From Leucobacter chromiisoli (GTDB lineage Bacteria; Actinomycetota; Actinomycetes; Actinomycetales; Microbacteriaceae), in NCBI RefSeq assembly GCF_016522505.1, contig NZ_JAEHOH010000003.1, positions 62,001 through 126,000 of the forward strand: DNA of 64,000 nt. Direction: 5' to 3'. Shown here one piece after another: positions 5,054 through 16,525 of the stretch. The notes below the pieces were generated by a model, which did not search any database, was not told the DNA's origin, and saw only the letters and a program-made list of their open reading frames with translations. The position numbers and the translations under genes were made by a program. The first letter of the stretch is position 1, and each line of letters opens with the position of its first letter.

Positions 5054-5112
5054 GTGTTCGAGGGTACTCCGGACCTCTGACATCGAGGCTGGCAAGACCC
5101 CGGTCGACGCCG

Positions 5113-5135
5113 CGGCCCGCGACCTTCTCGGGCCG
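5113..5135 (-). terminator. Hairpin after the DUF4287-like gene
   Basis: A 7-bp GC stem (CGGCCCG / CGGGCCG) with a 9-base loop begins 12 bases past the stop of the gene at 5148 and lies between it and uvrB. No clear U-tract follows, so termination strength is uncertain. Confidence 0.35.
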
Positions 5136-5147
5136 TCCCGCGGCGGC

Positions 5148-5693
5148 TCAGATCTGCGCGAGCAGGCCCTTCCACACGGGGCGCCAGTACTCGATGGCGC
5201 TCGCGGAGTCGAGCCTCGAGTGGACGAGGCCGACGGACGCCTTGCCCTCGGTCTTGTCGGTGATGTTCACGGAGACGCGGGTGCCGTCCGAGAGCGGGGC
5301 GCGCCAGTACCGCCACTTCTCCGTGCCCGAGGTCGAGGCGCCGCCGTCGAGCGGCACTCCCCCGAACTCGTCGCGACCCTCCACGAGCTCCAGCCACGCG
5401 CGCAGGGCCTCGTCCTTGTCGCGCCGCACCGTACGCGTCGTCGAGAGCTGGAAGTCGCCGTCGCAGGTCTGACCCGGGACGCGCAGGCCCGCGTGCTGCT
5501 CGAATGCGACGGCGGTGCCCTGAGCCCACCACTCGCGTCGCTCGACCGACTCCGGCATGAGCTCGAGGGCGAGGCGCGCGATGTCGGTGTGGGTCAGATC
5601 GCGCGCTCCGGACCGCTCCAGGAGCTCCACCCACTCCTCCCAGGCCCGACCGGTTCCGGTGGAGATCGCCGAGGTGTTCGATGCGTTGACCAT
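5148..5693 (-). CDS. DUF4287/SRPBCC-like protein of unknown function
   Basis: A 181-residue cytoplasmic protein. Residues about 10-65 look like the DUF4287 domain: a TG-x-x-W-x-x-W-x-x-L-x-x-x-G start ([14 protein letters not shown]), then [11 protein letters not shown] and the [21 protein letters not shown] block. The remaining residues ([14 protein letters not shown] onward, [26 protein letters not shown]) resemble a shortened SRPBCC/AHSA1-like lipid-binding fold, a pairing known in actinobacterial relatives. Function is unknown. ATG 5693 starts 4 bases after the methyltransferase stop; in-frame ATGs at 5711 and 5729 would overlap that gene. It is probably co-transcribed with the methyltransferase. 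Confidence 0.65.
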
Positions 5694-5697
5694 GCAC

Positions 5698-6372
5698 TCA
5701 TGGTCGCGCATCGTCCGCGGGCGGCACAACGGCCGAGATGCAGACGAGGAAGTCCGAGTCCGCCTCGAAGGGGCGCAGGTCCCACGTCGAGAAGCGGTGC
5801 TGCACCGCGAGCCCGGCGGCGGCGAGATCCTCCGCGTACTCGTCGAAGCCGTAGCCGCGTCCCGCTCCGAAGCCGGTCACGAGGCGACCGCGCGGGGCGA
5901 GCGCGCCGCGGAGCCCCTGCAGAGCGGGGCGCCGGGCAGCGGGGTCCAGGAAGGTCAGCACGTTGCCCGCCGAGACGATCGCGTCGAAGCCCCGGGCTTC
6001 CCGGGATCCGGCGCCCGCGGCGTCGAGGCTCGGGTAGGTGAACTCCGCGAGGTCCCCGACCCGCCATTCGGCGCGGGGGAAGGCCCGTCGGGCCTCGGCG
6101 ATGAGGTGCTCGTCGAGGTCCACGCCGGCGACGCGGTAGCCGCGCTCGGAGAGGTAGCCGCCGAGCCTCCCCTGCCCGCACCCGGCATCGAGCACCGCGG
6201 AGCCGGGGGCCGCCAGGGCGGCGACGAGGCGGGCCTCCCCGTCGAGGTCGCGCCCCTCGGCCGCGAGATCCCGCCAGCGCTGCGCGTACCGCGCCGAGTG
6301 CTCGGGGTCCTCCGCCCGCAGCCGATCCCAGAGATGGGAGTAGGCGGCGCGCCCCTCGTTCTCGCTCTGCAT
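5698..6372 (-). CDS. Class I SAM-dependent methyltransferase
   Basis: A 224-residue Rossmann-fold methyltransferase. Motif I is VLDAGCGQGRLGGYL (residues about 60-74), followed by an acidic SAM-ribose position in VAGVDLDEHLI, motif II around WRVGDLAEF, and the post-motif FDAIVSAGNVLTFL. The substrate is unknown: small-molecule methyltransferases of this kind cannot be told apart by eye. The 4-base gap to the DUF4287-like gene suggests a two-gene transcript. The ATG lies 9 bases from the divergently placed end of the next membrane-protein gene. Confidence 0.85.
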   Translation of the reverse strand: MQSENEGRAAYSHLWDRLRAEDPEHSARYAQRWRDLAAEGRDLDGEARLVAALAAPGSAVLDAGCGQGRLGGYLSERGYRVAGVDLDEHLIAEARRAFPRAEWRVGDLAEFTYPSLDAAGAGSREARGFDAIVSAGNVLTFLDPAARRPALQGLRGALAPRGRLVTGFGAGRGYGFDEYAEDLAAAGLAVQHRFSTWDLRPFEADSDFLVCISAVVPPADDARP

Positions 6373-6381
6373 GCCTCGACC

Positions 6382-7044
6382 CTATCCGCTCCGGCCGGCG
6401 GGGACCCGCTCCGCGCCCAGGCCCGCCCGCAGTTCGTCGGCGAGGGCGCGCACCCGGCCGTTGCACGCGCCGATCTCGTCGTCGAGCGCGCGGCGCGCCG
6501 TCTCCTCGCGCGCCGCCTCGGCGTCCAGGGCGGCGTCCCGGATCCGATCGAGCCCCAGCGCGATATCGGCGACGTGCAGGAGGATCCTTTCGTTCTCCCC
6601 GCTCGACGCGAGGAACTGCGCCCAGCGGCTGAGCAGATCGGCCAGCACGCGGTGCTCGGCGACGACGAGCTCCCGGAGCCGCTGCAGCTCGCCCTCGTAC
6701 TCGGCGTCGGATCCGGTGTGGGCCGGCCGCGGCAGCGCCCTCAGCACCACGTGCCCGCGGGAGAGCTCGCTGCGCTCCTCGTCGGCGAGGGCGTGGAGGA
6801 ACTCGGTGTAGGCCAGCCGATTCACCGGCGCCCACCGGCGCGCGGCCGAGCGCGCCAGCACCCGGTCGAGCACGAAGACGGTGAGCAGGAACGTCACGAA
6901 CCCCGCGGCGAGCCCCGAGAGCACGACGAGCTCCTGCCAGACCTGCGAGGTGACGTCCAACCACAGGATGACGGCGGCGACGGCGGTGGCGCCCACCGCG
7001 ATCGCGACGACTCTCGCCCGCTCCAGTATCCGCGTGCCAGCCAC
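6382..7044 (-). CDS. Membrane protein of unknown function with cytoplasmic helical domain
   Basis: A 220-residue protein not recognised as a named family. Two hydrophobic segments near the N-terminus (about residues 11-30, VVAIAVGATAVAAVILWLDV, and 38-60, ELVVLSGLAAGFVTFLLTVF) are followed by a long helical, charged, soluble region (about residues 65-215) rich in Glu, Arg, Ala and Leu. It could be a membrane-anchored structural or sensor protein. It stands alone, facing away from the MarR gene, with 9 bases to the methyltransferase. Confidence 0.6.
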   Translation of the reverse strand: MAGTRILERARVVAIAVGATAVAAVILWLDVTSQVWQELVVLSGLAAGFVTFLLTVFVLDRVLARSAARRWAPVNRLAYTEFLHALADEERSELSRGHVVLRALPRPAHTGSDAEYEGELQRLRELVVAEHRVLADLLSRWAQFLASSGENERILLHVADIALGLDRIRDAALDAEAAREETARRALDDEIGACNGRVRALADELRAGLGAERVPAGRSG

Positions 7045-7165
7045 ACCCGATTCCCCGCTTCCTCGCCAGCGACCGATGCCCTTGCGGCCACCATAGCCGG
7101 GAAAGTCGGATCGCGGGCGGCCCGGCGCGGCCTCCGCGCCGGTATCGCGTCCGTGGTGAGGGGAT

Positions 7166-7186
7166 TTAGTTACTCAATGTAATTAA
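7166..7186. promoter_or_regulatory. Probable MarR autoregulatory operator
   Basis: Inverted repeat with arms TTAGTTAC and GTAATTAA (7 of 8 pairs) around a 5-base centre, in a short AT-rich island just upstream of the MarR start. Size and AT-richness are typical of MarR operators. It ends 17 bases before the chosen ATG, so binding would block the promoter. Confidence 0.6.
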
Positions 7187-7203
7187 GTGTTAAGGTAATG
7201 AAT

Positions 7204-7665
7204 ATGGAAGCGACCGTACTCGACCGCCTGCTCGCCCTCAGCGACCTGCTGCAGCGCGACATGGGCGACTCCTTCGCCGCCGACCTCACCGAGAGCCGCG
7301 TGCACGCCCTGTGGGTGCTGCACCACCTCGGCCCGTCCACGCAGCAGGCCATGTCGCAGGCGCTCCGGGTCACGCCCCGCAGCGTGTCGGCGCTCGTGGA
7401 CGCGCTCGAGGCCGCCGGGTACGTGACGCGGTCCCCGCACCCCGAGGATCGACGCGCGGTGCTCGTCGCGCTCACGCCGGGAGCGGCGAGCATGATGGCG
7501 CGGATGCAGCGGGATCACACGAGCCTCGCGACGCGCCTCCTGGAGGCCGTTGCGGCGGAGGACCGCGATGCGTTCGAGCGCGGCCTGGACGCGGTGCTCG
7601 GTCGGCTGCGCGAGCTCGTCGCGAGCGAGTCGGTCTCCTACGGTCTCGAGGAGGAGCGGCCATGA
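7204..7665 (+). CDS. MarR-family transcriptional regulator
   Basis: A 153-residue winged-helix regulator. The recognition region is STQQAMSQALRVTPRSVSAL, followed by VDALEAAGYVTRSPHPEDRR, where the DRR wing motif is characteristic of MarR. ATG 7204 is chosen because TTAAGG ends 8 bases before it; the upstream ATG at 7198 is only 2 bases from that site. A palindrome just upstream suggests autoregulation. The gene overlaps the next one by ATGA (7662-7665), so the membrane protein downstream is likely part of the regulon. Confidence 0.88.
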   Translation: MEATVLDRLLALSDLLQRDMGDSFAADLTESRVHALWVLHHLGPSTQQAMSQALRVTPRSVSALVDALEAAGYVTRSPHPEDRRAVLVALTPGAASMMARMQRDHTSLATRLLEAVAAEDRDAFERGLDAVLGRLRELVASESVSYGLEEERP

Positions 7666-8375
7666 CGCCGCCGGAGCAGACGGCGGACCGCGGGGTGCCC
7701 GCCCGGCCGGGCCCCGCCGCCCGGACGAAGGATCTCGCGGCTCGCGCGGTCCGCATGGAGCTGCTCGTCTACGAGAGCCTCTGGCGCGCGGTGTCGCGTC
7801 GCCCCAAGATCGACGCCGGTGCGCACGGATTCCGCTACCACGGCCCCGTGCTGACGGTCCTCATCATCTTCATCGTGCTCTCGGCCGTGGAGATCCCGAT
7901 CATCGACCTCATCGTGCACCGCTGGACGCCGGTGCGGATCGGCTTCCTGATCCTCGGCATCTGGGGGCTCACCTGGATGATCGGCCTGCTCTGCGCGTAC
8001 TTCACCCGCCCGCACACCGTCGGGCCCGAGGGGATCCGGGTGCGCGAGGGGCTCGAGATCGACGTGCTCGCCGAGTGGGGCGACGTCGCGTCGGTGCGGG
8101 TGCGCACCGTCAGCGCGGAGAGCATCGATCCGACGAGCACCGAGAAGCCCGGCCGCGTGTTCGACCACGAGGGCGAGCGGATCTGCGCGATCTGGGTCGG
8201 CAGCGAGACGAACCTCGAGATCGAGTTCGAGGGGCCCACCGAGGTGGTGCTGCCCGGGCTCGCGCCGAAGGGCGGATCGCAGGTGGTTGATCGGCTGCGG
8301 TTCTGGGGCGACGACCCCGAGGCGCTGCTCCGAGCCGTGCGCGACGAACTCGAGGCCGCGCGCGACCCTCGCTAG
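7662..8375 (+). CDS. Small membrane protein with PH-like cytoplasmic domain, MarR operon
   Basis: A 237-residue protein. An N-terminal cytoplasmic part (about 50 residues) is followed by two membrane helices (VLTVLIIFIVLSAVEIPIID and VRIGFLILGIWGLTWMIGLL), then about 125 residues of soluble domain. The soluble part reads like a bacterial PH domain (GPEGIRVREGLEIDVLAEWG, then an acidic beta-rich stretch). No function is known. ATGA overlap with the marR stop indicates translational coupling, so expression probably follows the MarR signal. It is the last gene before the GC drop. Confidence 0.65.
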   Translation: MTPPEQTADRGVPARPGPAARTKDLAARAVRMELLVYESLWRAVSRRPKIDAGAHGFRYHGPVLTVLIIFIVLSAVEIPIIDLIVHRWTPVRIGFLILGIWGLTWMIGLLCAYFTRPHTVGPEGIRVREGLEIDVLAEWGDVASVRVRTVSAESIDPTSTEKPGRVFDHEGERICAIWVGSETNLEIEFEGPTEVVLPGLAPKGGSQVVDRLRFWGDDPEALLRAVRDELEAARDPR

Positions 8376-8382
8376 CCGGTGC

Positions 8383-9510
8383 TCATTGCGAGCCTCCAGG
8401 GCCAGACCGGTCTGCTCGGCCCGCAGCGTCTTCAAGTGCTGCCACGGCTTCGTCTTGGCTGAGTCCGGTGATCCGCAGAAGGTCGACCACCGTGGAACGG
8501 ATCTGTCCGACCAGCACACTCGTCGTAGGCGAGTACGGATCGGAATACACCGCCGAGGCAGTCACAGCTGCGGTCAAGGCCTTCTGCCGAACCTGGGAGG
8601 CGTTCGTCCGGGAGCCGATCCAAGACCTGAGTTCGTCCACGGCTCGGGCGAGCTGGTCGACCGCGTGTGGCAAGGCGGGGGCGACCTGGCGCGGATGCCG
8701 CACCAGGTTCGCGCCCGCCCGACACATCGCGCGCCCCGACGACAGCAGGAGGTCCATACGCGCGCCGAGCTGCTCCACGGCGTGAAGTCGACGCCTCTGC
8801 ACCGCGCGTGTCCGCGATCGCGCGAGAGAGATGCGTTCTCGAGCGGCCGCGACCGCATCGGCGATATCTTGACGAGCGCTCACCAGGGACGCCATATCCT
8901 CCAGGGCTTCCTCGGCGCCGGGAAGGGACCGGCCGGCGATCTCCTGGCCGAGTCGCTCCAAGATATGGGAGTACCGGGACAGGATCGCCTCCGCCTCCGC
9001 CACCGCCGCCCGAAACGGATCGGCGCCGACCAGGGAGGTCAGCAGGAGCGCGACAGCCGCTCCGACCACTGCATCGCCTAAGCGAACCCAGGGGTCTGAA
9101 CCGAGATGCTGCGCCAGGGTCATCACGACCACGGCGGCCACCGCGGCTTGATTGGCCATGAGGCTGCTGGGCCGGAACGCGACCGCCGTCGTCATCGCCA
9201 CCAGAACCGCAAGGGCCAGCTGCCAAGCGCCGATGCCGAGCCAGCGCGAAAGGAGGTCCGCCGAGGCGATGCCGAGAACCACGCCGGCCGAGATCTCGAC
9301 GGCGCGTCCGCGGCGCTGTCCCGCTGAAAGCCCGGTAGCGACCACGGCGGCGATCGGCGCGAATACCGCCTGCTGAGTGCCGAAGAGCGCACCCGCCAGC
9401 AGATAGGAGATCCCGGCCGCGAGCGCAGCGAGCAGGAGGACGGACGCGTGCTGTCGCACTCCCCCGCCCATCTGGGCGCCCAGGCGGCGTACCCGATGCA
9501 GGAGCGTCAT
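8383..9510 (-). CDS. FUSC / aromatic acid exporter-like inner membrane protein
   Basis: A 375-residue protein with a hydrophobic N-terminal half: about five or six helices, including LLLAALAAGISYLLAGALFG, FAPIAAVVATGLSAG, LALAVLVAMTTAVAF and QAAVAAVVVMTLA. A long cytoplasmic helical half follows (VAEAEAILSRYSHILERL onward). The QRRGRAVEISAGVVLGI loop after the second helix pair is typical of FUSC/ArAE proteins, which export aromatic acids or remodel membranes. Members are often twice this size with two membrane halves; this one has a single half. ATG 9510 leaves 7 bases after the ASRT stop; an in-frame ATG at 9540 would overlap that gene by 23 bases. Third gene of the oxidase operon. Confidence 0.75.
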   Translation of the reverse strand: MTLLHRVRRLGAQMGGGVRQHASVLLLAALAAGISYLLAGALFGTQQAVFAPIAAVVATGLSAGQRRGRAVEISAGVVLGIASADLLSRWLGIGAWQLALAVLVAMTTAVAFRPSSLMANQAAVAAVVVMTLAQHLGSDPWVRLGDAVVGAAVALLLTSLVGADPFRAAVAEAEAILSRYSHILERLGQEIAGRSLPGAEEALEDMASLVSARQDIADAVAAARERISLARSRTRAVQRRRLHAVEQLGARMDLLLSSGRAMCRAGANLVRHPRQVAPALPHAVDQLARAVDELRSWIGSRTNASQVRQKALTAAVTASAVYSDPYSPTTSVLVGQIRSTVVDLLRITGLSQDEAVAALEDAAGRADRSGPGGSQ

Positions 9511-9517
9511 GATCCTG

Positions 9518-9913
9518 TCAGGAGCTCCTGCGCCCGACATCCGGGACCCCGGAGATCATCGCGACGGCCAGATTGTTCTTGCGAGTGTCCACGTACACGA
9601 GCTGTGCGACGATCGGTGCATCGCTGATCAGGACGAGGCCGTAGGGCCGGCCGAGTGGTACGGCCTCGGGATCGATCAAGTCGTTGATCCTGACGTGACG
9701 AACCCGGGAAGCGGGAACGAGAATCTCATACGGCGAGATCGGATCCCGATCCTCGTGATACACCGTCACGCGGACGCATGCGTCTCCTGACGACGTGTTC
9801 AGCACGCACAAGACGTTGCGACTCGTGTATTCCGGTTCGCGACCGGTGCTCTGGGCGGGAATCCAGCCCGCCGAAAACGTCCATCGGGTGTGCCCCAGCA
9901 CGGAGTGCTCCAT
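9518..9913 (-). CDS. Anabaena sensory rhodopsin transducer (ASRT)-like protein
   Basis: A 131-residue soluble beta-rich protein, near the usual ASRT length of about 125. Family blocks are visible: GHTRWTFSAGWIP at the start, GREPEYTSRNVLCVLNTS, VTVYHEDRDPISPYEILVPA, then RVRHVRINDLIDPEAVP and SDAPIVAQLVYVDTR. In Anabaena the protein is a tetrameric partner of sensory rhodopsin with a sugar/nucleotide-binding-like fold. No rhodopsin gene is visible here, so its role is unlikely to be light signalling. It sits 14 bases after the FAD oxidase and 7 before FUSC, in one operon, which suggests a link to carbohydrate metabolism. Codon use is less GC-rich than average for the window. Confidence 0.75.
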   Translation of the reverse strand: MEHSVLGHTRWTFSAGWIPAQSTGREPEYTSRNVLCVLNTSSGDACVRVTVYHEDRDPISPYEILVPASRVRHVRINDLIDPEAVPLGRPYGLVLISDAPIVAQLVYVDTRKNNLAVAMISGVPDVGRRSS

Positions 9914-9927
9914 CGTTCCCCCTCCTC

Positions 9928-11130
9928 TTACGCCTCGTCCAGGAGTTGTCGCAGGTAGTCATTCTGGAAGACCCCGTCCGGGTCGAGGGCGCGTCTGATC
10001 CGCTGAAACTCGTCCCACTCCGGGTACAGCTCCCGCAGCTCGCCGGCGGACAGACTGTGCTTCTTGCCCCAGTGCGGGCGGCCTCCGAAACTTCGAAGCA
10101 GCGGCTCCATATCGGCGAAATACTCCTCGTGCGGAAGCGAAGCGTTCTGGAGCAGCGCGACGGTCACGGTGGATCGGCCCTGGGCGGTGCTGATCATGCC
10201 CCGATCGGGCGCTATGGTGCGAACCAGAACACGCCACGCCACCCGTGCTCGGTGTTTCTCCTTGATCCGCGTTCGCGCTTCGCCGAATGCCTCTAATCCG
10301 TTGTCGAACGGGAGCATGTACTCCATCTCATCGAAACGGAGATCCCGTGCGCTGGGGATGATCTCGTAGGAGGGTCCGGTTTCATCGGTCTTGAGGCGTC
10401 CCGGGGGTGTCAGTTCGGGCTCCTCACCGGGCACGTTCAGCAGGCGGATCTGCGCCAGATCGCTTCTCGGATACCAGTAGAAATCCATGCTGCGATTGGT
10501 CTCGACCAACTCGTCGAAGTTCTCCAAGACCCAATCGATGTGCGTTATCCAGTTCGTGCGGCGAAGCTCGTACGCGGGCTCGAGCCGCAGTGTGAGAGAG
10601 GTGAGAACTCCGAGTGCGCCGAGCGACACCTGCGCCGCCCGAAGGAGATCGTGATGTTCGTCCTCGCCCGCATCGACTCCGAAGGGCAGGGTGTCGCCGG
10701 TGCCGGTGACGAGCGTACCGCCGATCAGTGTCGACGACAGGTTTCCCAACCGCACCCCGGACCCGTGGGTGCCTGTGGCGATGGCTCCCGCAAGGGACTG
10801 ATAATCGACATCACCGAGGTTCTCCATTCCCAGTCCCGCGTCTGCGAGTTCCGCGCCCAGGCGGGCGAGCTCGATTCCCGGCGAGACGGCCGCTCGCATC
10901 CGGCGAGGATCGGCGGACCGCACGTCGACCATTCTCTTCAGAGACACCAGCACGTCTTCGGTCGTCATCAACGGCGTCGAGGAATGCCCCGACCCGACGG
11001 GACGGACGGTCCGACCCCGGTCGCGCGCTTCACGGACGATCCGCACCACCTCTTCCTCGCCTTCGGGCTCACGCCGCTCCGACGGGGTGAATCTCAGGCT
11101 GCCGGACCAGTTCGTGAAGCGATCAGCCAT
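9928..11130 (-). CDS. FAD-linked oxidase, D-arabinono-1,4-lactone oxidase / alditol oxidase type
   Basis: A 400-residue VAO-type flavoenzyme. The N-terminal FAD domain has VRPVGSGHSSTPL; His49 lies where relatives such as AldO bind FAD covalently. Next come NLGDVDYQSLAGAIATGTHG, the phosphate/adenine-binding region, and SLGALGVLTSLTLRL. The C-terminal half is the ALO domain, with HWGKKHSL near the end, as in gulonolactone/arabinonolactone oxidases. It would oxidise a sugar lactone or alditol with O2 and release H2O2; the exact substrate cannot be told. Start ATG 11130 follows AGAGGAGAGG. A good promoter (TTGCAA, 17 bases, TAGCCT) lies 52 bases upstream. First gene of a three-gene operon with ASRT and FUSC. 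Confidence 0.85.
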   Translation of the reverse strand: MADRFTNWSGSLRFTPSERREPEGEEEVVRIVREARDRGRTVRPVGSGHSSTPLMTTEDVLVSLKRMVDVRSADPRRMRAAVSPGIELARLGAELADAGLGMENLGDVDYQSLAGAIATGTHGSGVRLGNLSSTLIGGTLVTGTGDTLPFGVDAGEDEHHDLLRAAQVSLGALGVLTSLTLRLEPAYELRRTNWITHIDWVLENFDELVETNRSMDFYWYPRSDLAQIRLLNVPGEEPELTPPGRLKTDETGPSYEIIPSARDLRFDEMEYMLPFDNGLEAFGEARTRIKEKHRARVAWRVLVRTIAPDRGMISTAQGRSTVTVALLQNASLPHEEYFADMEPLLRSFGGRPHWGKKHSLSAGELRELYPEWDEFQRIRRALDPDGVFQNDYLRQLLDEA

Positions 11131-11181
11131 CGACGCCTCTCCTCTGCATACGGCCGCTGCGGCCAGGAGGTCGGGTCATTC

Positions 11182-11210
11182 AGGCTAACGGCGGCCGGTC
11201 ATGATTGCAA
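11182..11210 (-). promoter_or_regulatory. Promoter of the oxidase-ASRT-FUSC operon
   Basis: On the minus strand, -35 TTGCAA (11205-11210) and -10 TAGCCT (11182-11187) are separated by exactly 17 bases, giving a leader of about 45 bases to the ATG at 11130 with a strong ribosome binding site. Confidence 0.6.
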
Positions 11211-11293
11211 CGGTGTTCCGGCGACGCCCGGGGCTCCTTGTACCATCGGAGGAATCACCCGAGACGAGTACGGGGTACCGGTACCGCGAGGAG

Positions 11294-13105
11294 ATGCACG
11301 TGGACAACGGCGAGAAATCAGCGATCCCTCTCGACGCCATCCCGGCCCGTTCCAGCGGGTACGTCGACTTGCGCTCGTACTCCGCTATCGGAGACGGCTT
11401 GACAGTGGCCCTCATCGCTCACGACGGCTCGATCGACTGGTATCCAACGCCTCTCCTCGACTCCCCTCCCGCGTTCGCGAGACTGCTCGACGCCGAGAAC
11501 GGCGGATGCATCGAGCTCGCGCCGGACGGAGACTTCACCGTCGAACGGGCGTACATCCCCCGAACCAACGTGCTGCAGACCACCTACACTACGGCGACGG
11601 GATCAGCACGCGTCACCGATTCTCTGAACACCGGTCTATCGGGACGGTTGCCGTGGGGAGAGCTCGCGCGGCGTATCGAAGGCCTTGAGGGCGAGGTTGC
11701 GATGCGGTGGCGAGTCGCGCCCGGTACGGCCTTGGCCTCGGCTTCCCCCTGGGCCCATTCTTCCCCTCTGGGTCCTGTGCTGCGGATCGGAGACACCACG
11801 GTCGGAGTGCGAGGCACCGCAATCGGAGACTCCGTCGTCACGGGGCGAGACATTTCAGGAACGTTCACCGCGCGCCGTTCTTCCCACCACCTGCTGGGGA
11901 TTCTCACGACGAGTGCTGAACCGCTCCAGTTGCCCGATCCTGAAGATATCGATCGAGGGATCGACCGAACCGTACGCTACTGGGAGAGCTGGTCTGCCGA
12001 GCTGCGGTACGAGGGCCCCTGGTCGGACGAGGTCCTGCGAAGCGCCCTCGCCTTGAAACTGTTGCACAGTCCGTCAGGTGCGATCGCTGCCGCGGCGACC
12101 ACCTCTCTGCCTGAGAGCCTCGACGGCGGCAAGAACTGGGACTACCGTTTCGCCTGGGTTCGTGATGCCGCCTACACTCTGCACACGCTGATTCGATTTG
12201 GCGAGCGAGAGGAAGTGCACGCGGCTCTCTCCTGGCTGCTCCGCGTCGCACGAGACCGCGGGGCGGATCTCGCCGTCTTCACCCGTCTCGACGGGGGCGA
12301 GCCCGATGCGGAACGCGCAGTCGATGTTCCGGGCTGGCGGCGGATCGGCCCCGTCGTCACCGGCAATCGGGCGAAAGGCCAGCTTCAGCTCGGCATCTAC
12401 GGGGACCTGTTCGAGATGGTTCGGCTCTACGTCGAGGGCGGGCACCTGCTCGACACGGACACCACGCGACTGCTCTCGGAGATGGCGGATCGCACCTGCG
12501 ATGTATGGCAGCGAGCCGACGCGGGAATCTGGGAACTGCAAACCGATCGTCACTACACGAGTTCCAAAATGGGATGCTGGCATGCTCTGGAGTGCGCGGT
12601 CGCCCTGGCGGAGGAGGGCCATATCGAGGGATCGGTCGAGAGATGGCGTTACGAGCGCGATCGCATTCGAGATTGGATCGACGAGCACTGCTGGTCGGAA
12701 ACGCTCCAGAGCTACACCTGGTATTCGGGAACCGACCAGCTCGACGCGTCCGTGCTGCTGCATGCGGCGAGCGGATTCGATCGCGGGCCGCGAATGTCCT
12801 CCACGATCGACGCGGTGACCCGAGAGCTCGGCGACGGTCCCCTGATCTACCGCTACAGCGGTGCGGACGAGGAGGAGGGCACGTTCGTCGCCTGCGCGTT
12901 CTGGGCGGTTGCGGCACTCGTGGAAGTCGGGCGCAGGCGAGAAGCTGAAGAGCTGATGGGTCGGCTCGTGCCACTCGCAAACGATGTGGGCTTGTACTCG
13001 GAGATGATCGCGAGTCGAGACCACTCGTTCCTCGGAAACCTTCCCCAGGGCCTCAGTCATCTGGCGCTCATGGCCGCCGCCCTCACTCTTGTCGAGGAAT
13101 ACTGA
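11294..13105 (+). CDS. Glycoside hydrolase family 15 protein (glucoamylase/trehalase-like)
   Basis: A 603-residue cytoplasmic GH15 enzyme, the usual length of bacterial members. The N-terminal beta domain begins SYSAIGDGLTVALIAHDGSIDWYPTP. The catalytic (alpha/alpha)6 barrel contains KNWDYRFAWVRDAAYTLHTL, the general-acid motif DAGIWE (Glu about residue 413) with SSKMGCWHALECA, and the general base in DEEEGTFVACAFW (about residue 525). GH15 enzymes cut terminal alpha-glucosidic bonds; mycobacterial members include a trehalase, so the substrate may be trehalose or another alpha-glucoside. ATG 11294 abuts a GAGGAG site; GTG 11300 is in frame with better spacing. It lies 9 bases from the next gene in a two-gene operon. 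Confidence 0.9.
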   Translation: MHVDNGEKSAIPLDAIPARSSGYVDLRSYSAIGDGLTVALIAHDGSIDWYPTPLLDSPPAFARLLDAENGGCIELAPDGDFTVERAYIPRTNVLQTTYTTATGSARVTDSLNTGLSGRLPWGELARRIEGLEGEVAMRWRVAPGTALASASPWAHSSPLGPVLRIGDTTVGVRGTAIGDSVVTGRDISGTFTARRSSHHLLGILTTSAEPLQLPDPEDIDRGIDRTVRYWESWSAELRYEGPWSDEVLRSALALKLLHSPSGAIAAAATTSLPESLDGGKNWDYRFAWVRDAAYTLHTLIRFGEREEVHAALSWLLRVARDRGADLAVFTRLDGGEPDAERAVDVPGWRRIGPVVTGNRAKGQLQLGIYGDLFEMVRLYVEGGHLLDTDTTRLLSEMADRTCDVWQRADAGIWELQTDRHYTSSKMGCWHALECAVALAEEGHIEGSVERWRYERDRIRDWIDEHCWSETLQSYTWYSGTDQLDASVLLHAASGFDRGPRMSSTIDAVTRELGDGPLIYRYSGADEEEGTFVACAFWAVAALVEVGRRREAEELMGRLVPLANDVGLYSEMIASRDHSFLGNLPQGLSHLALMAAALTLVEEY

Positions 13106-13114
13106 GGACACCGT

Positions 13115-14077
13115 ATGGCGACGATTGGATTCCACGCATCTCACGAGCAAGTTGCTCCGGCCCGGCTCTTGCGCGATGTGCAGTACGCCGAACAGGCCGG
13201 GTTCGCGGCGGCGATGTGTTCGGACCACATCGCGCCATGGTCAGTGCGGCAGGGCCATTCGGGGTTTGCCTGGTCGTGGCTCGGTGCTGCGTTGGCGACC
13301 ACTGACCTGTCCTTCGGCGTCGTCACCTCGATGGGGCACCGTTACCATCCGGCTGTGCTGGCTCAGGCCTCGGCTACGCTTGCCTCGATGTTTCCGGCTC
13401 GCTTCTGGGTGGCCCTGGGAAGCGGAGAGAATCTGAACGAGCACGTGGTGGGGCACGGCTGGCCGGCGAAGGAAGTGCGGCAGCAGCATCTCGAGCGCGG
13501 CTTCCACCTGCTTCGCCGGCTCCATGCCGGCGAAACCGTCAGCGATAGCTTCGGTCCTGTCGTGGTGGATGAGGCGCGCGTGTGGGAGGTGCCGGAAGTG
13601 AAGCCGCCCCTGATTCTCCCCGCACTCACGCCGGAGACCGCCCGACGATGTGCAAGAACGGCCGATGGATTGATCACGGTGAATCAGCCACTCGACGGGC
13701 TGCGAGAGATATGCACTGCCTACCGGGAGCACGGCGGCCGGGGACCCATCATGCTTCAGGTGCATCTGAGTTGGGCGGAAACGCAGGGGGAAGCCGAGGC
13801 AATCGCGTTCGATCAGTGGCGCACCAACGTCTTCGATCCTCCCGTGATGGCAGATCTGCCCTCGGTCGCCGACTTCGAAGCGAGAGCCGACCGGCACGAT
13901 GCTCACGCGCGCCTCGCCGAGGCCGTCAATATCTCCGCTGATCTGAACCGTCACGCGGATTGGATCAGCGAATTTCTCGAGCTTGGCGTAGATTCGGTGT
14001 TTCTCCACCACGTGGGGAAGGAACAGGTGCGATTCATCGAGGCGTTCGGCGATCGGGTGCTGCCTCAGCTGCGGTGA
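13115..14077 (+). CDS. LLM-class flavin-dependent oxidoreductase, TIGR03885-like
   Basis: A 320-residue luciferase-like TIM-barrel oxidoreductase. It opens with IGFHASHEQVAPARLLRDVQ and carries AGFAAAMCSDHIAPW, SGFAWSWLGAALATT, FGVVTSMGHRYHPAVLAQA and FWVALGSGENLNEHVVG, matching the TIGR03885 group, which is thought to use FMN rather than F420. LLM enzymes oxidise alcohols or sugars or add oxygen; the substrate is unknown. GAGGA lies before ATG 13115, inside and just after the GH15 stop, so the two are co-expressed. TIGR03885 proteins next to GH15 enzymes are known from other genomes, which suggests a common sugar pathway. Confidence 0.85.
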   Translation: MATIGFHASHEQVAPARLLRDVQYAEQAGFAAAMCSDHIAPWSVRQGHSGFAWSWLGAALATTDLSFGVVTSMGHRYHPAVLAQASATLASMFPARFWVALGSGENLNEHVVGHGWPAKEVRQQHLERGFHLLRRLHAGETVSDSFGPVVVDEARVWEVPEVKPPLILPALTPETARRCARTADGLITVNQPLDGLREICTAYREHGGRGPIMLQVHLSWAETQGEAEAIAFDQWRTNVFDPPVMADLPSVADFEARADRHDAHARLAEAVNISADLNRHADWISEFLELGVDSVFLHHVGKEQVRFIEAFGDRVLPQLR

Positions 14078-14205
14078 TCTCGCCAACGGGCGATCTCACT
14101 CAGGCACGGGAAGGGCAACCGTGGAGGGTAGAGCGTTCGGTGAGGAGCGCGTCGGGAGCCTCCCGCAGAGACGCATCGCCCCAGGCGAGGACCGCGAGAG
14201 CGCTG

Positions 14206-14622
14206 TCAGGCGAACCAGAGGGCGAGCTCGCGCTCCGCCGACTCGGGCGAGTCGGACCCGTGCACGAGGTTCTGCTGCACCTTGAGCCCCCAGTCGCGCC
14301 CGAGGTCGCCGCGGATGGTGCCCGGCGCCGCCGTCGTCGGATCGGTCGTGCCCGCGAGCGAGCGGAAGCCCTCGATGACCCGCTCCCCGGCGGCTCGGAT
14401 GGCGACGGTCGGGCCCGACGACATGAACTCGATGAGCGGCTCGTAGAAGGGCTTGCCCTCGTGCTCGGCGTAGTGCGCCGCGAGCAGCTCGCGATCCGCG
14501 TCGACCAGGCGCAGGTCGACCAGCGTGTAGCCCTTCGCCTCGATGCGGCGCAGGATCTCGCCGGTCAGTCCACGGGCAACACCGTCGGGCTTCACCAGGA
14601 TGAGGGTCTCTTCTGCAGACAT
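14206..14622 (-). CDS. ndk: Nucleoside diphosphate kinase
   Basis: A 138-residue NDP kinase that moves the gamma-phosphate from ATP to NDPs through a phosphohistidine. It starts EETLILVKPDGVARGL and has the active-site signature NLVHGSDSPESAERELALWF, where His is the phosphorylated residue. Length and motifs are standard. Start ATG 14622 follows AAGGAG by 8 bases. It is the last gene of the ileS-folC-DUF4233-ndk group on this strand, 59 bases after DUF4233. Downstream the conserved order ends and the lower-GC block begins. Confidence 0.97.
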   Translation of the reverse strand: MSAEETLILVKPDGVARGLTGEILRRIEAKGYTLVDLRLVDADRELLAAHYAEHEGKPFYEPLIEFMSSGPTVAIRAAGERVIEGFRSLAGTTDPTTAAPGTIRGDLGRDWGLKVQQNLVHGSDSPESAERELALWFA

Positions 14623-14681
14623 GCACGCTCCTTCGTCACACGGAAAGTCGGGTGGGGGCGCCGGGCCCCCGGTCCACCAGC

Positions 14682-15155
14682 TTAGCCGCCCTGCGCGGCC
14701 ATCCAGGCGCGGCGGTCGCGATCGATCTGCGCGCCCTTGACCATGCAGTAGATCCAGAGGGCGGTGAAGAGCAGGCCGACGATCCACGCCATCGGCAGCA
14801 GGAAGCCGGTCAGCAGCATGAGGACGTGCACCGCCCAGCCGATGACGATGCCGGCCCTTCCGAAGCGCATGACCCCGAGACCGACGACGATGACCAGTGC
14901 GAGGCCGCCCCCGAGGTAGAGGCCGAGTTCGCGCGGTTCGAGCGCGCCGAGCCCGAACAGGGTGAGGCCGATGAGCACGACGATGACGAGCTCGAAGCCG
15001 AGCACGATCGAGGCGAGCGCCTTCTGCGTCGACCGCTCCCCCCGGCCCGCGCCCGAGACGCGCATCGCCGAGTTGTGCGCCATCGTCTCGGAGGGCGAGA
15101 GCTGCAGCTCGTCGGGATCCGGCGCCTCGGCGCCGTTCCGGTCGCGATCGGTCAT
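14682..15155 (-). CDS. DUF4233 membrane protein
   Basis: A 157-residue integral membrane protein found next to folC in actinobacteria. A polar N-terminal tail (about 45 residues) is followed by four helices: ALASIVLGFELVIVVLIGL, LGLYLGGGLALVIVVGLGV, IVIGWAVHVLMLLTGFLL and WIVGLLFTALWIYCMVKG. Function is unknown. ATG 15155 overlaps the folC stop by 4 bases (ATGA), so translation is coupled. Confidence 0.85.
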   Translation of the reverse strand: MTDRDRNGAEAPDPDELQLSPSETMAHNSAMRVSGAGRGERSTQKALASIVLGFELVIVVLIGLTLFGLGALEPRELGLYLGGGLALVIVVGLGVMRFGRAGIVIGWAVHVLMLLTGFLLPMAWIVGLLFTALWIYCMVKGAQIDRDRRAWMAAQGG

Positions 15156-16525
15156 GCGATCCCCCATCCCTCTTCGCGCGAGTGGGCGATCGCCTCGCCG
15201 GCGAGCAGCACCGAGCCGACGACCAGCACCGCCCGATCGTCGGAGCGCGCGGCCCATCCCCTGGCCACCTCGAGCGCCTCGGGAAGGCTCTGCGCCACCT
15301 CGATCGGCGTCGCGGGGATCGCCTCCTCGGCGAGCGCCCGGAGGTCGTCGGGGTCGAGGCTCCGCGGCGAGGCGACCGGGGTGACGTAGACGGCGTGGGC
15401 CAGCGGCGCGAGCGCGGTCAGCAGCCCGGCGGCGTCCTTCTCCTCCAGCACGCCGACCACGAGCGCGAGCTCCTCGAACCCGAACGACTCGGTCACCGCC
15501 TCCGCGAGGGCGGCGGCGCCGTGCGGGTTGTGCGCCGAGTCGACGTAGACGACCGGGTCGGTGCCGATGAGCTGCAGTCGCCCCGGCGAGGTGAGCTGCC
15601 CGAGACCCTCGTCCAGGATCTCCTCGGGCAGCGGACGATCCGCTCCGAAGAACGCCTCGGCGGCGGCGATCGCGAGCGCGACGTTCTCGGCCTGGTGCCG
15701 CCCGAAGAGCGGCACGAACGCCGGGTCGTAGGGCTGCCCCGAGGCGCCGATCACGTCGATCTGCCTGCCGCCCACGGCGAGCCGATCCTCCACGAGCCTG
15801 AAGTCGCGGCCGGCGACGAACAGCGGCGACCCGTGCTCCTCGGCGGTCGCGACGATCTCGTCGAGCGCCTCCGGAACCTGAGCGGCCGTGACGACGGTGG
15901 AGCCGTCCTTGATGATCCCCGCCTTCGTCCTCGCGATCGTGGCGACGTCGCGGCCGAGCACCGCGGTGTGGTCGAGGTCGATCGGCGTGAACACGGCCAC
16001 GCGGGCGTCCACGATGTTCGTCGCGTCCCACTCGCCCCCCATGCCGACCTCGATCACGGCCACCTCGACGGGCGCGTCGGCGAAGGCGGTGAAGGCGAGC
16101 ACCGCCAGCGCCTCGAAGAAGGTGATGGCGCCGTGACCGGCGGCCGCCAGCTCGCCGTCGACGACCTGCAGCGGCAGCTGCAGCTCGTCCCAGGCCTCGG
16201 CCAGGGCGGCGCCGTCGATCGGGGCGCCGTCGACCTGGAAGCGCTCGGTGAAGTCGATGAGGTGCGGGCTCGTGAACAGGCCGGTGCGCAGGCCGTGCGC
16301 GCGCATCAGCGACTCGATCGCCCGGCTGGTGGAGGTCTTGCCGTTGGTGCCCGCGACCTGGATCACGGGGAACGAGAGCTGCGGAGATCCGGCCAGCTCG
16401 GCCAGGCGCCGCACCGGCTCGATGCGGGGCCGCGGACTCGCCTCTCCCACGCGCTCGAGCAGCTGCTCGTAGACGCGCCGGGCCGCCGCGGCCCCGCCCC
16501 GATCCTCGGGCGCGACGGGGCTCAC
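15152..16525 (-). CDS. folC: Bifunctional dihydrofolate synthase / folylpolyglutamate synthase
   Basis: A 457-residue Mur-ligase-fold enzyme that adds glutamate to dihydropteroate and to reduced folates. The ATP-binding P-loop is [16 protein letters not shown]; next come [15 protein letters not shown], the family motif [19 protein letters not shown], and [13 protein letters not shown] in the C-terminal domain. It overlaps the ileS stop by 4 bases upstream and DUF4233 by 4 bases downstream, so ileS, folC and DUF4233 are translated as a coupled unit. Confidence 0.95.

Follow-up and report, generated by a model that had tools for sequence, protein, structure and literature searches.

ASRT-like genes have been described in operons with amylases (in Sinorhizobium), pyruvate oxidase and an FAD oxidoreductase, and the solo ASRT protein encoded there was proposed to act as an intracellular sugar sensor, according to the ASRAH-domain paper (De Souza, Iyer and Aravind, 2009; PMC2739507). 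The locus analyzed in this work is a block of five genes at 8383-14077 of a 64,000-nucleotide stretch of the Leucobacter chromiisoli genome (contig NZ_JAEHOH010000003.1, positions 62,001 to 126,000; below, the window). It resembles those operons in its solo ASRT gene adjoining the gene of an FAD-linked oxidase of the ALO family, and differs from them in that a glycoside hydrolase of family GH15 takes the place of the amylase, an LLM oxidoreductase of the TIGR03885 family and a FUSC-type membrane protein are present, and the pocket histidine of ASRT is lost. The words ‘luciferase’, ‘glucoamylase’, ‘exporter’ and ‘fusaric’ are absent from the main text of PMC2739507. An earlier note, made from this DNA sequence alone, had stated that no description of the set as a system was known; this was too strong, since the 2009 paper already links ASRT-like genes to sugar operons. 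In the open-licence literature searched, we found neither the link to the LLM enzyme nor the paired residue changes of ALO and ASRT reported below, nor any mention of ‘TIGR03885’ or co-mention of ‘sensory rhodopsin transducer’ with ‘lactone oxidase’.

Another known arrangement is the operon around treS on pSymB of S. meliloti, which is tight, shares ALO, ASRT, an alpha-glucoside enzyme and a TIGR03885 LLM with the window and differs by two ASRT genes, a TreS-like GH13 enzyme instead of GH15, a pyruvate oxidase, the lack of FUSC and the location of all genes on one strand. The gene order is pyruvate oxidase-ASRT-ALO-ASRT-GH13-LLM in CP050512 and ASRT-ALO-ASRT-GH13-LLM in strain 1021, the GH13 gene being placed as treS SMb20099 from a passage of PMC4960864 and gene counting. 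As to control of this operon by RpoE2, its genes do not occur in the main-text passages of PMC3616915 available to us, and a combined literature search was empty. The four components come together in the window, in S. meliloti pSymB and, across a contig break, in the genome G229 (genomes and fetched loci of our samples are designated by G and L numbers), where GH15 lies directly beside LLM and divergent from ALO, LLM and GH15 being in reverse order relative to the window; in Deinococcus deserti the ALO-ASRT pair has an LLM gene 3.5 kb away. This is a recurring, modular neighbourhood rather than a fixed five-gene system, and the pathway of sugar release, oxidation and sensing supposed in the earlier note stands in the same sense, as a theme of distant lineages and not as a fixed set. 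We put at roughly 0.4 the probability of a sugar-oxidation cassette that was gained horizontally and belongs to a widespread type centred on ASRT, its chemistry being predicted. The features of the locus are collected in Table 1.

Table 1. Features of the five-gene block and its flanks (window coordinates)
Feature	Position	Strand	Remarks
FUSC-type membrane protein, 385 aa	8383..9540	-	PF13515 FUSC_2, E 3.6e-14; GC3 0.772; final gene of the leftward unit
ASRT (PF07100), predicted small-molecule binder	9518..9913	-	E 4.7e-42; pocket His replaced by Arg
FAD-linked oxidase, FAD_binding_4 + ALO / NCBIfam TIGR01679	9928..11130	-	member of the ASRT-linked clade
Divergent intergenic region between ALO and GH15	11131..11293		end at 11200 if GH15 starts at 11201; probable site of both promoters
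GH15 alpha-glucosidase/trehalase-like hydrolase with TREH_N	11201..13105	+	PF00723, E 1.1e-43
TIGR03885 FMN-type LLM oxidoreductase	13115..14077	+	432 bits
Left flank, outside the block: hypothetical gene	7659..8375	+	no Pfam match; adjoins MarR regulator at 7198-7665
Right flank, outside the block: ndk open reading frame	14206..14787	-	NDK domain from residue ~57-59

The ALO protein of the window passes the TIGR01679 cut-off (337 against 292.25 bits), and its gene adjoins ASRT also in G226, G049, D. deserti, S. meliloti and the haloarchaea Natrialba magadii and Natrononativus amylolyticus. In G226 the order and strand FUSC-ASRT-ALO are as in the window, GH15 being located 2.2 kb past ALO with an alcohol dehydrogenase gene between, and N. 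amylolyticus has the order ASRT-ALO-ASRT. The adjacency is likely in G229 as well, judging from the sequences at the contig break: 59 bases separate the end of ALO from a contig end, where the final bases read as the start of an open reading frame (MAIGK), and a second contig ends inside an ASRT gene lacking its first ~21 codons. Beside the pair of G049 (L159), ~1.3 kb away, an open reading frame for an integrase-core (rve) transposase was observed at 11347-12414, which may point to mobility. When 19 ALOs were placed in a tree, the eight ASRT-linked proteins fell on one side of a branch with a support of 100/100; G049 had entered through the ASRT search, both searches (ASRT and ALO) had yielded G226, G229 and the plasmid rows, and the 11 unlinked rows were nine congener ALOs (no ASRT match within 1.5 kb on either side) and two hits from the phylum sample (none in 18 kb). 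Independently of this choice of rows, only G226 and G229 in the phylum sample (296 genomes) exceeded 40% ALO identity. Among the best 60 of 110 plasmid matches, those of Sinorhizobium, D. deserti and Natrononativus reached 47-51% and the rest at most 36.9%; the Natrialba ALO, found in the other plasmid search, likewise belongs to the 47-51% group.

The linked oxidases share with AldO and GALDH (PDB 2vfr, 8ot8, 8qnc) the sequence family, the flavin-site His (G-H-S; A-H-S in S. meliloti) and the HWGK motif, as HW(G/A)K, and differ from them by their separate clade and by Leu at the Glu position of E-x-R. This replacement is found in 8/8 ASRT-linked ALOs, the Arg being kept, and Glu is retained in AldO, 8ot8 and both unlinked ALOs aligned. 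We take the Glu and Arg of E-x-R to be active-site residues of AldO/GALDH, and presume likewise the role of the flavin-site His; judged by the Glu and Arg together, the window protein with its Leu falls outside the AldO/GALDH type. The clade has a glycine at a position presumably tied to O2 use in the GALDH/AldO literature. The earlier designation of the enzyme as ‘GULO-type’ is right at the family level and does not extend to the active site, and the annotation is no guide to an aldonolactone substrate, given the Leu shared by the clade.

A change of the partner protein accompanies that of the oxidase. The window ASRT matches PF07100 over model positions 2-113 of 119, as well as PDB 2iia/2ii7/1nc7. 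According to PMC2739507, SHEshChhN is the signature of ASRT-like proteins, the His and Cys of which contact the ligand and are nearly absolutely conserved. In the window the motif is SRNVLCVLN with Cys and Asn kept and Arg in the His position; lacking the His-Cys pair named there, the protein is regarded as a PF07100 homologue with a changed pocket. The nine positions of the signature were compared across 36 fetched loci with ASRT genes. Downstream of ALO the His was lost in 7/8 lineages, being Arg in the window, G226, G229, G049 and S. meliloti (two strains), Asn in Natrialba and Tyr in D. deserti, with His in Natrononativus; it was kept in 29/29 ASRT genes of loci without ALO. The second, upstream ASRT copies have His in Natrononativus and S. 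meliloti RCAM1750 and Pro in strain 1021. Because of the loss in seven of the eight ALO-linked lineages, we consider the partner of ALO to be a specialised ASRT.

Outside the L. chromiisoli genome 23 ASRT loci were examined, namely G049 and the 22 strongest of the 34 other places in the phylum sample (E up to 7e-17; several stretches end at contig ends). A GH15 match lay within 5 kb of ASRT in five of them (G226, G346, G486, G515, G243), and a rough chance model, which ignores kinship, gave 1e-5 to 5e-5 for GH15 near ASRT in 4/22. ALO was matched in 2/23 loci, or three with G229 by inference, and a weak match of 27% was seen at the ASRT locus of G278. Plasmids (13 of 79 records opened) had ALO beside ASRT in five records: Natrialba, D. 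deserti, Natrononativus and two of S. meliloti. GH15 adjoins ASRT on plasmids of Deinococcus AJ005 and D7000 and is 0.6 kb off in Caballeronia; Methylomagnum has a gene annotated as glucoamylase-family 1.5 kb from ASRT, and Croceicoccus has GH15 at 6 kb together with a cluster of GMC, gluconate dehydrogenase and TPP (thiamine pyrophosphate) enzyme genes, which Nitrobacter resembles without GH15. The Klebsiella (sugar porter, SDR, mandelate racemase) and Sphingobium (ectoine genes) loci lack ALO, GH15 and the GMC cluster.

Beyond the ALO pairing, a second kind of ASRT neighbourhood was observed on plasmids of Deinococcus, Nitrobacter, Caballeronia and Croceicoccus, consisting, with varying gene content, of gluconate 2-dehydrogenase subunit 3, GMC oxidoreductase, SDR, TPP enzyme and an enolase-like gene, often with GH15. 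On the Sphingobium plasmid (L259) the neighbours of ASRT are a MarR gene and genes of ectoine biosynthesis, which suggests a link to osmotic stress. AI-2E family transporter genes occur near ASRT on the Methylomagnum (L168) and D. deserti (L162) plasmids, where they could stand in for FUSC.

The LLM protein of the window passes the TIGR03885 cut-off of 398.7 bits, and the G229, S. meliloti and D. deserti proteins score 501-507 bits. LLM matches were obtained in 92/150 genomes of the family sample, and 23 family places outside the L. chromiisoli genome reach 49-59% identity, which we took as TIGR03885 level, the model itself having been run on the window, G229, S. meliloti and D. deserti proteins only; six LLMs of 39-43% identity were taken as TIGR03557-type. 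A GH13 gene follows LLM on the same strand in 23/23 TIGR03885-level family loci and in 0/6 TIGR03557-type loci (Fisher p 2e-6, kinship ignored). All four TIGR03885-level LLMs of the genus are likewise followed by such an enzyme, GH13 in G190 and GH65 in G158, G151 and G159 (in G158 with a TPP enzyme further on, past GH65), so that a trehalose/maltose-type enzyme stands directly 3' of LLM in 27/27 cases examined in the family (24 TreS-like GH13, three GH65). The GH13 partner is best named ‘TreS-like’, since its scores are below the cut-off of 678 for TIGR02456 (maltose alpha-D-glucosyltransferase): 545 for L012 (partial), 533 for S. meliloti and 591 for A. vitis. No GH15 gene was found within 1.5 kb on either side in the 29 family LLM loci. 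Among the plasmid LLM loci (10 of 99 records opened, nine organisms), a trehalose/alpha-glucan or glucosidase gene is present within 5 kb in six organisms (Streptomyces, Spirosoma, A. fabrum, A. vitis, Ketogulonicigenium, S. meliloti) and absent in Paracoccus, A. pusense and D. deserti.

The described enzyme of the same LLM branch is FGD1, the F420-dependent glucose-6-phosphate dehydrogenase (PDB 3b4y). In the 32 TIGR03885-level proteins compared (23 from the family and nine others), the positions of its catalytic residues are kept: His40 is His and Trp44 is Trp in 32/32, and Glu109 is Glu in 29 and Gln in three. In contrast to FGD1, the phosphate-binding positions are lost, no Lys or Arg being found at Lys198, Lys259 and Arg283 in any of the 32, and the L. 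chromiisoli genome has no CofD match, in a lax search whose control gave sub-cut-off matches even in E. coli. Among the six TIGR03557-type proteins, Lys/Arg occupies the second pocket position in 6/6, Arg the third in 5/6 and neither the first (0/6), so only two of these positions discriminate. A residue test on these two positions (TIGR03557-type L025-L030 against TIGR03885-level) may separate phosphosugar from neutral-substrate enzymes. The window protein is far below the cut-off of the F420-dependent model TIGR03554 (118.6 against 420 bits), its pocket residues being replaced. The solved structure closest by sequence is 9hav, and no paper was found in a literature search on it.

The GH15 protein belongs to its family both by the Pfam match and by residues E445 and E601, which are invariant in 18 aligned sequences and which we take to be the catalytic glutamates. 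Its model (pLDDT 83.6) has the bacterial glucoamylase 1lf6 as the best Foldseek match (E 3e-17, TM 0.66), and no match was obtained in a sequence search of PDB. The trehalase TreH1 model (NF041084, cut-off 820) gave 251 bits for the window, 359 for G229 and 352 for G226. The start at 11201 is doubtful, 11294 or 11300 being more likely on sequence grounds: residues 1-46 are modelled with pLDDT <50, and most homologues match from residue ~33-59 (L084 from residue 10).

The earlier note had placed the five genes in two divergent units, which agrees with the open reading frames, families and spacing found: all five are present at the coordinates given, FUSC and ASRT overlap by 23 bp, and the gaps are 14 bp between ALO and ASRT and 9 bp between GH15 and LLM. 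No match to the sigma-70 consensus was found in 7000-15500, the fold z-score of RNA from the divergent region is -1.0, and the promoter and structure scans gave nothing beyond chance. The composition proposed to be unlike that of the neighbours was borne out by the GC check: GC is 0.643 in 9500-14077 against 0.714 in the window outside the block, and GC at third codon positions (GC3) is 0.772 in FUSC, 0.780 in ASRT, 0.773 in ALO, 0.751 in GH15 and 0.738 in LLM against 0.917-0.954 in six flanking genes (MarR, the 7659-8375 gene, NDK, FolC, IleS, UvrB). FUSC, the plain GC of which is 0.69, is counted in the block because its GC3 matches the other four genes. When GC3 of the best open frame was taken per 450-bp tile, the median was 0.747 in 28 block tiles and 0.940 in 356 other window tiles (p 1.3e-8). 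None of the 157 other 5.7-kb stretches of the window was as low as the block; in the window together with longer genome pieces 57/884 were, and in plain GC 28/317 background windows, which indicates further low-GC islands in the genome. The block stands out from its surroundings without being the only such stretch in the genome. Pieces L209, L213, L215, L217, L220, L223 and L228 of this genome (G000), with equally low best-frame GC3, are possible further islands.

The insertion site was compared within a genus sample of 54 genomes (L. chromiisoli and 53 congeners), 52 of which have ndk. The NDK most similar to that of the window is found in G154 (84%), where the order is ndk, an AlkZ-like gene (PF06224), a hypothetical gene, a MarR gene and uvrB; G196 has the same order plus one open reading frame with a weak TPR match. 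The hypothetical and MarR genes of the left flank are common to G154 and G196 (tblastn 72-73%); at the DNA level the window is homologous to these genomes up to 8341-8342 and again from 14205-14210. Both ndk and uvrB were present in 10/12 fetched loci, the interval between them varying in length among congeners. As the earlier note had supposed, the block was probably acquired horizontally, to judge from its foreign-like composition and from the insertion site, since two congeners keep the flanking genes with different DNA between them. The nearest tRNA gene is 29.7 kb away; no integrase or transposase was found among nine scanned proteins, no further search for mobile elements having been made. 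In 5095-14206 the AlkZ-like glycosylase gene of G154/G196 is missing beside the window ndk.

Within the genus, ALO relatives occur in 50/54 genomes, the best outside L. chromiisoli being only 37% identical, and its own genome has a paralogue of 36% identity on contig 35. GH15 is present in six genomes (four relatives of 57-60% identity, one of 39%), and no ASRT, ALO or LLM match was found within ~8 kb on either side of the five fetched congener GH15 loci. LLM occurs in five genomes including that of L. chromiisoli, three congeners also carrying GH15. In the family sample of 150 genomes ASRT was found in L. chromiisoli and G049 alone.

On the best reading of these sequences, the module would be mobile and stress-associated and would combine sugar release, sugar oxidation and ASRT as a ligand sensor. 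In the order of reactions that we infer, GH15 would hydrolyse trehalose or malto-oligosaccharides to glucose, the substrate being less certain than the family; LLM would use FMN in place of F420 to oxidise a neutral sugar, of which glucose (at C1) is the most likely, a proposal made because the catalytic positions are kept, the phosphate pocket is lost and the genes regularly stand beside trehalose/maltose enzymes; and the ALO-clade oxidase might oxidise the LLM product or a related sugar with O2, yielding H2O2. ASRT, as a specialised partner of ALO, may bind a sugar, lactone or acid and tune partner proteins, not DNA, as suggested by the 2009 proposal, the ALO adjacency and the paired pocket change. 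The weakest step of the scheme is that FUSC, a protein with a FUSC_2 domain, may export the acidic product; a homologue of 35% identity holds the same position after ASRT in G226 (L141). LigD is encoded nearby in G229 (an open reading frame read by eye), Stenotrophomonas, Paracoccus and A. vitis, and catalase or DUF892/ferritin-like proteins in A. fabrum, A. pusense, S. meliloti and G226; such neighbours of the relatives, together with Ku and trehalose enzymes, suggest that the cassette could be used under drying, osmotic or stationary-phase stress.

Several observations weigh against this cassette reading. The parts recur together in distant lineages, but the five-gene set as a unit was found neither in the genus nor elsewhere; GH15 and LLM are 104 kb and 109 kb apart in G158 and G151 and on separate contigs in G159, and FUSC recurs with ASRT-ALO in one other genome only, G226. 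ASRT has other partners, since 17/23 stretches (16 if the G229 break is bridged) gave no match to ALO, GH15, GH13 or GH65 at E 1e-6. With the pocket His lost, the ligand idea of 2009 is not simply transferable to the window ASRT, the ligand of which may differ from that of other ASRTs, and the reaction of the ALO clade may differ from those of its characterised relatives, the Glu of which it lacks. GH15 could be a trehalase or a glucoamylase, the trehalase profile being below cut-off and the fold search pointing to the latter. Moreover, trehalose/glycogen genes and stress genes are often neighbours in one island and yet belong to no common pathway. An alternative is that the block is a loose genomic island in which separately useful stress genes (ALO-ASRT, GH15-LLM, FUSC) travel together with no single pathway. 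The Natrialba, Natrononativus and G049 stretches, in which ALO-ASRT occurs without a GH15 or LLM match, are in line with it, as are the 23 family loci having LLM-GH13 without ASRT or ALO within 1.5 kb and the loci in which genes for LigD, Ku, catalase or DUF892 proteins are intermingled; the union of four functions in one S. meliloti operon and in one divergent G229 cluster speaks for a closer bond, and we hold the loose island to be possible, though not the expected case.

Glucose released by GH15 could also lead to a reductone antioxidant resembling ascorbate or erythorbate, if LLM formed gluconolactone, ALO converted it to a D-erythorbate-like compound and FUSC exported it. The family-level match of ALO to lactone oxidases, the glycine at the position presumably tied to O2 use and the stress genes near relatives would suit such a route, but the Glu-to-Leu change in all eight linked ALOs demotes it; in addition, no lactone isomerase is among the five block genes and no bacterial erythorbate pathway among the literature matches listed, so we regard it as improbable. 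A plain catabolic locus serving the use of an external glycoside, in which ASRT would sense the inducer and FUSC would expel toxic acids, is reminiscent of those other ASRT loci where GMC oxidoreductase, gluconate 2-dehydrogenase subunit 3, TPP enzyme and the enolase-like gene resemble sugar-acid catabolism; given five block genes with neither a sugar importer nor a regulator, and trehalose/glycogen-type enzymes dominating beside LLM, we find it likewise improbable. Returning to the sugar-oxidation cassette, an extended form of it is possible, though less likely than not: the TIGR03885 LLMs would be new FMN dehydrogenases for an unphosphorylated, trehalose/maltose-derived sugar, and the ALO clade a new oxidase with an altered active site, paired with an altered ASRT. 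Together they would form an undescribed stress pathway, passed between archaea and bacteria of several phyla, in which trehalose/maltose becomes an oxidised sugar product sensed by its own ASRT.

No substrate is given for TIGR03885, which is listed as a ‘hypothetical equivalog’, and for PF07100 proteins not encoded in rhodopsin loci a role has so far only been predicted. The pairing of LLM with trehalose/maltose enzymes, the loss of the phosphate pocket and the matched changes of ALO and ASRT give concrete substrate tests for three unassigned protein groups, and the ALO-ASRT pair, extending from archaea to bacteria, makes the sugar-sensor proposal of 2009 directly testable.

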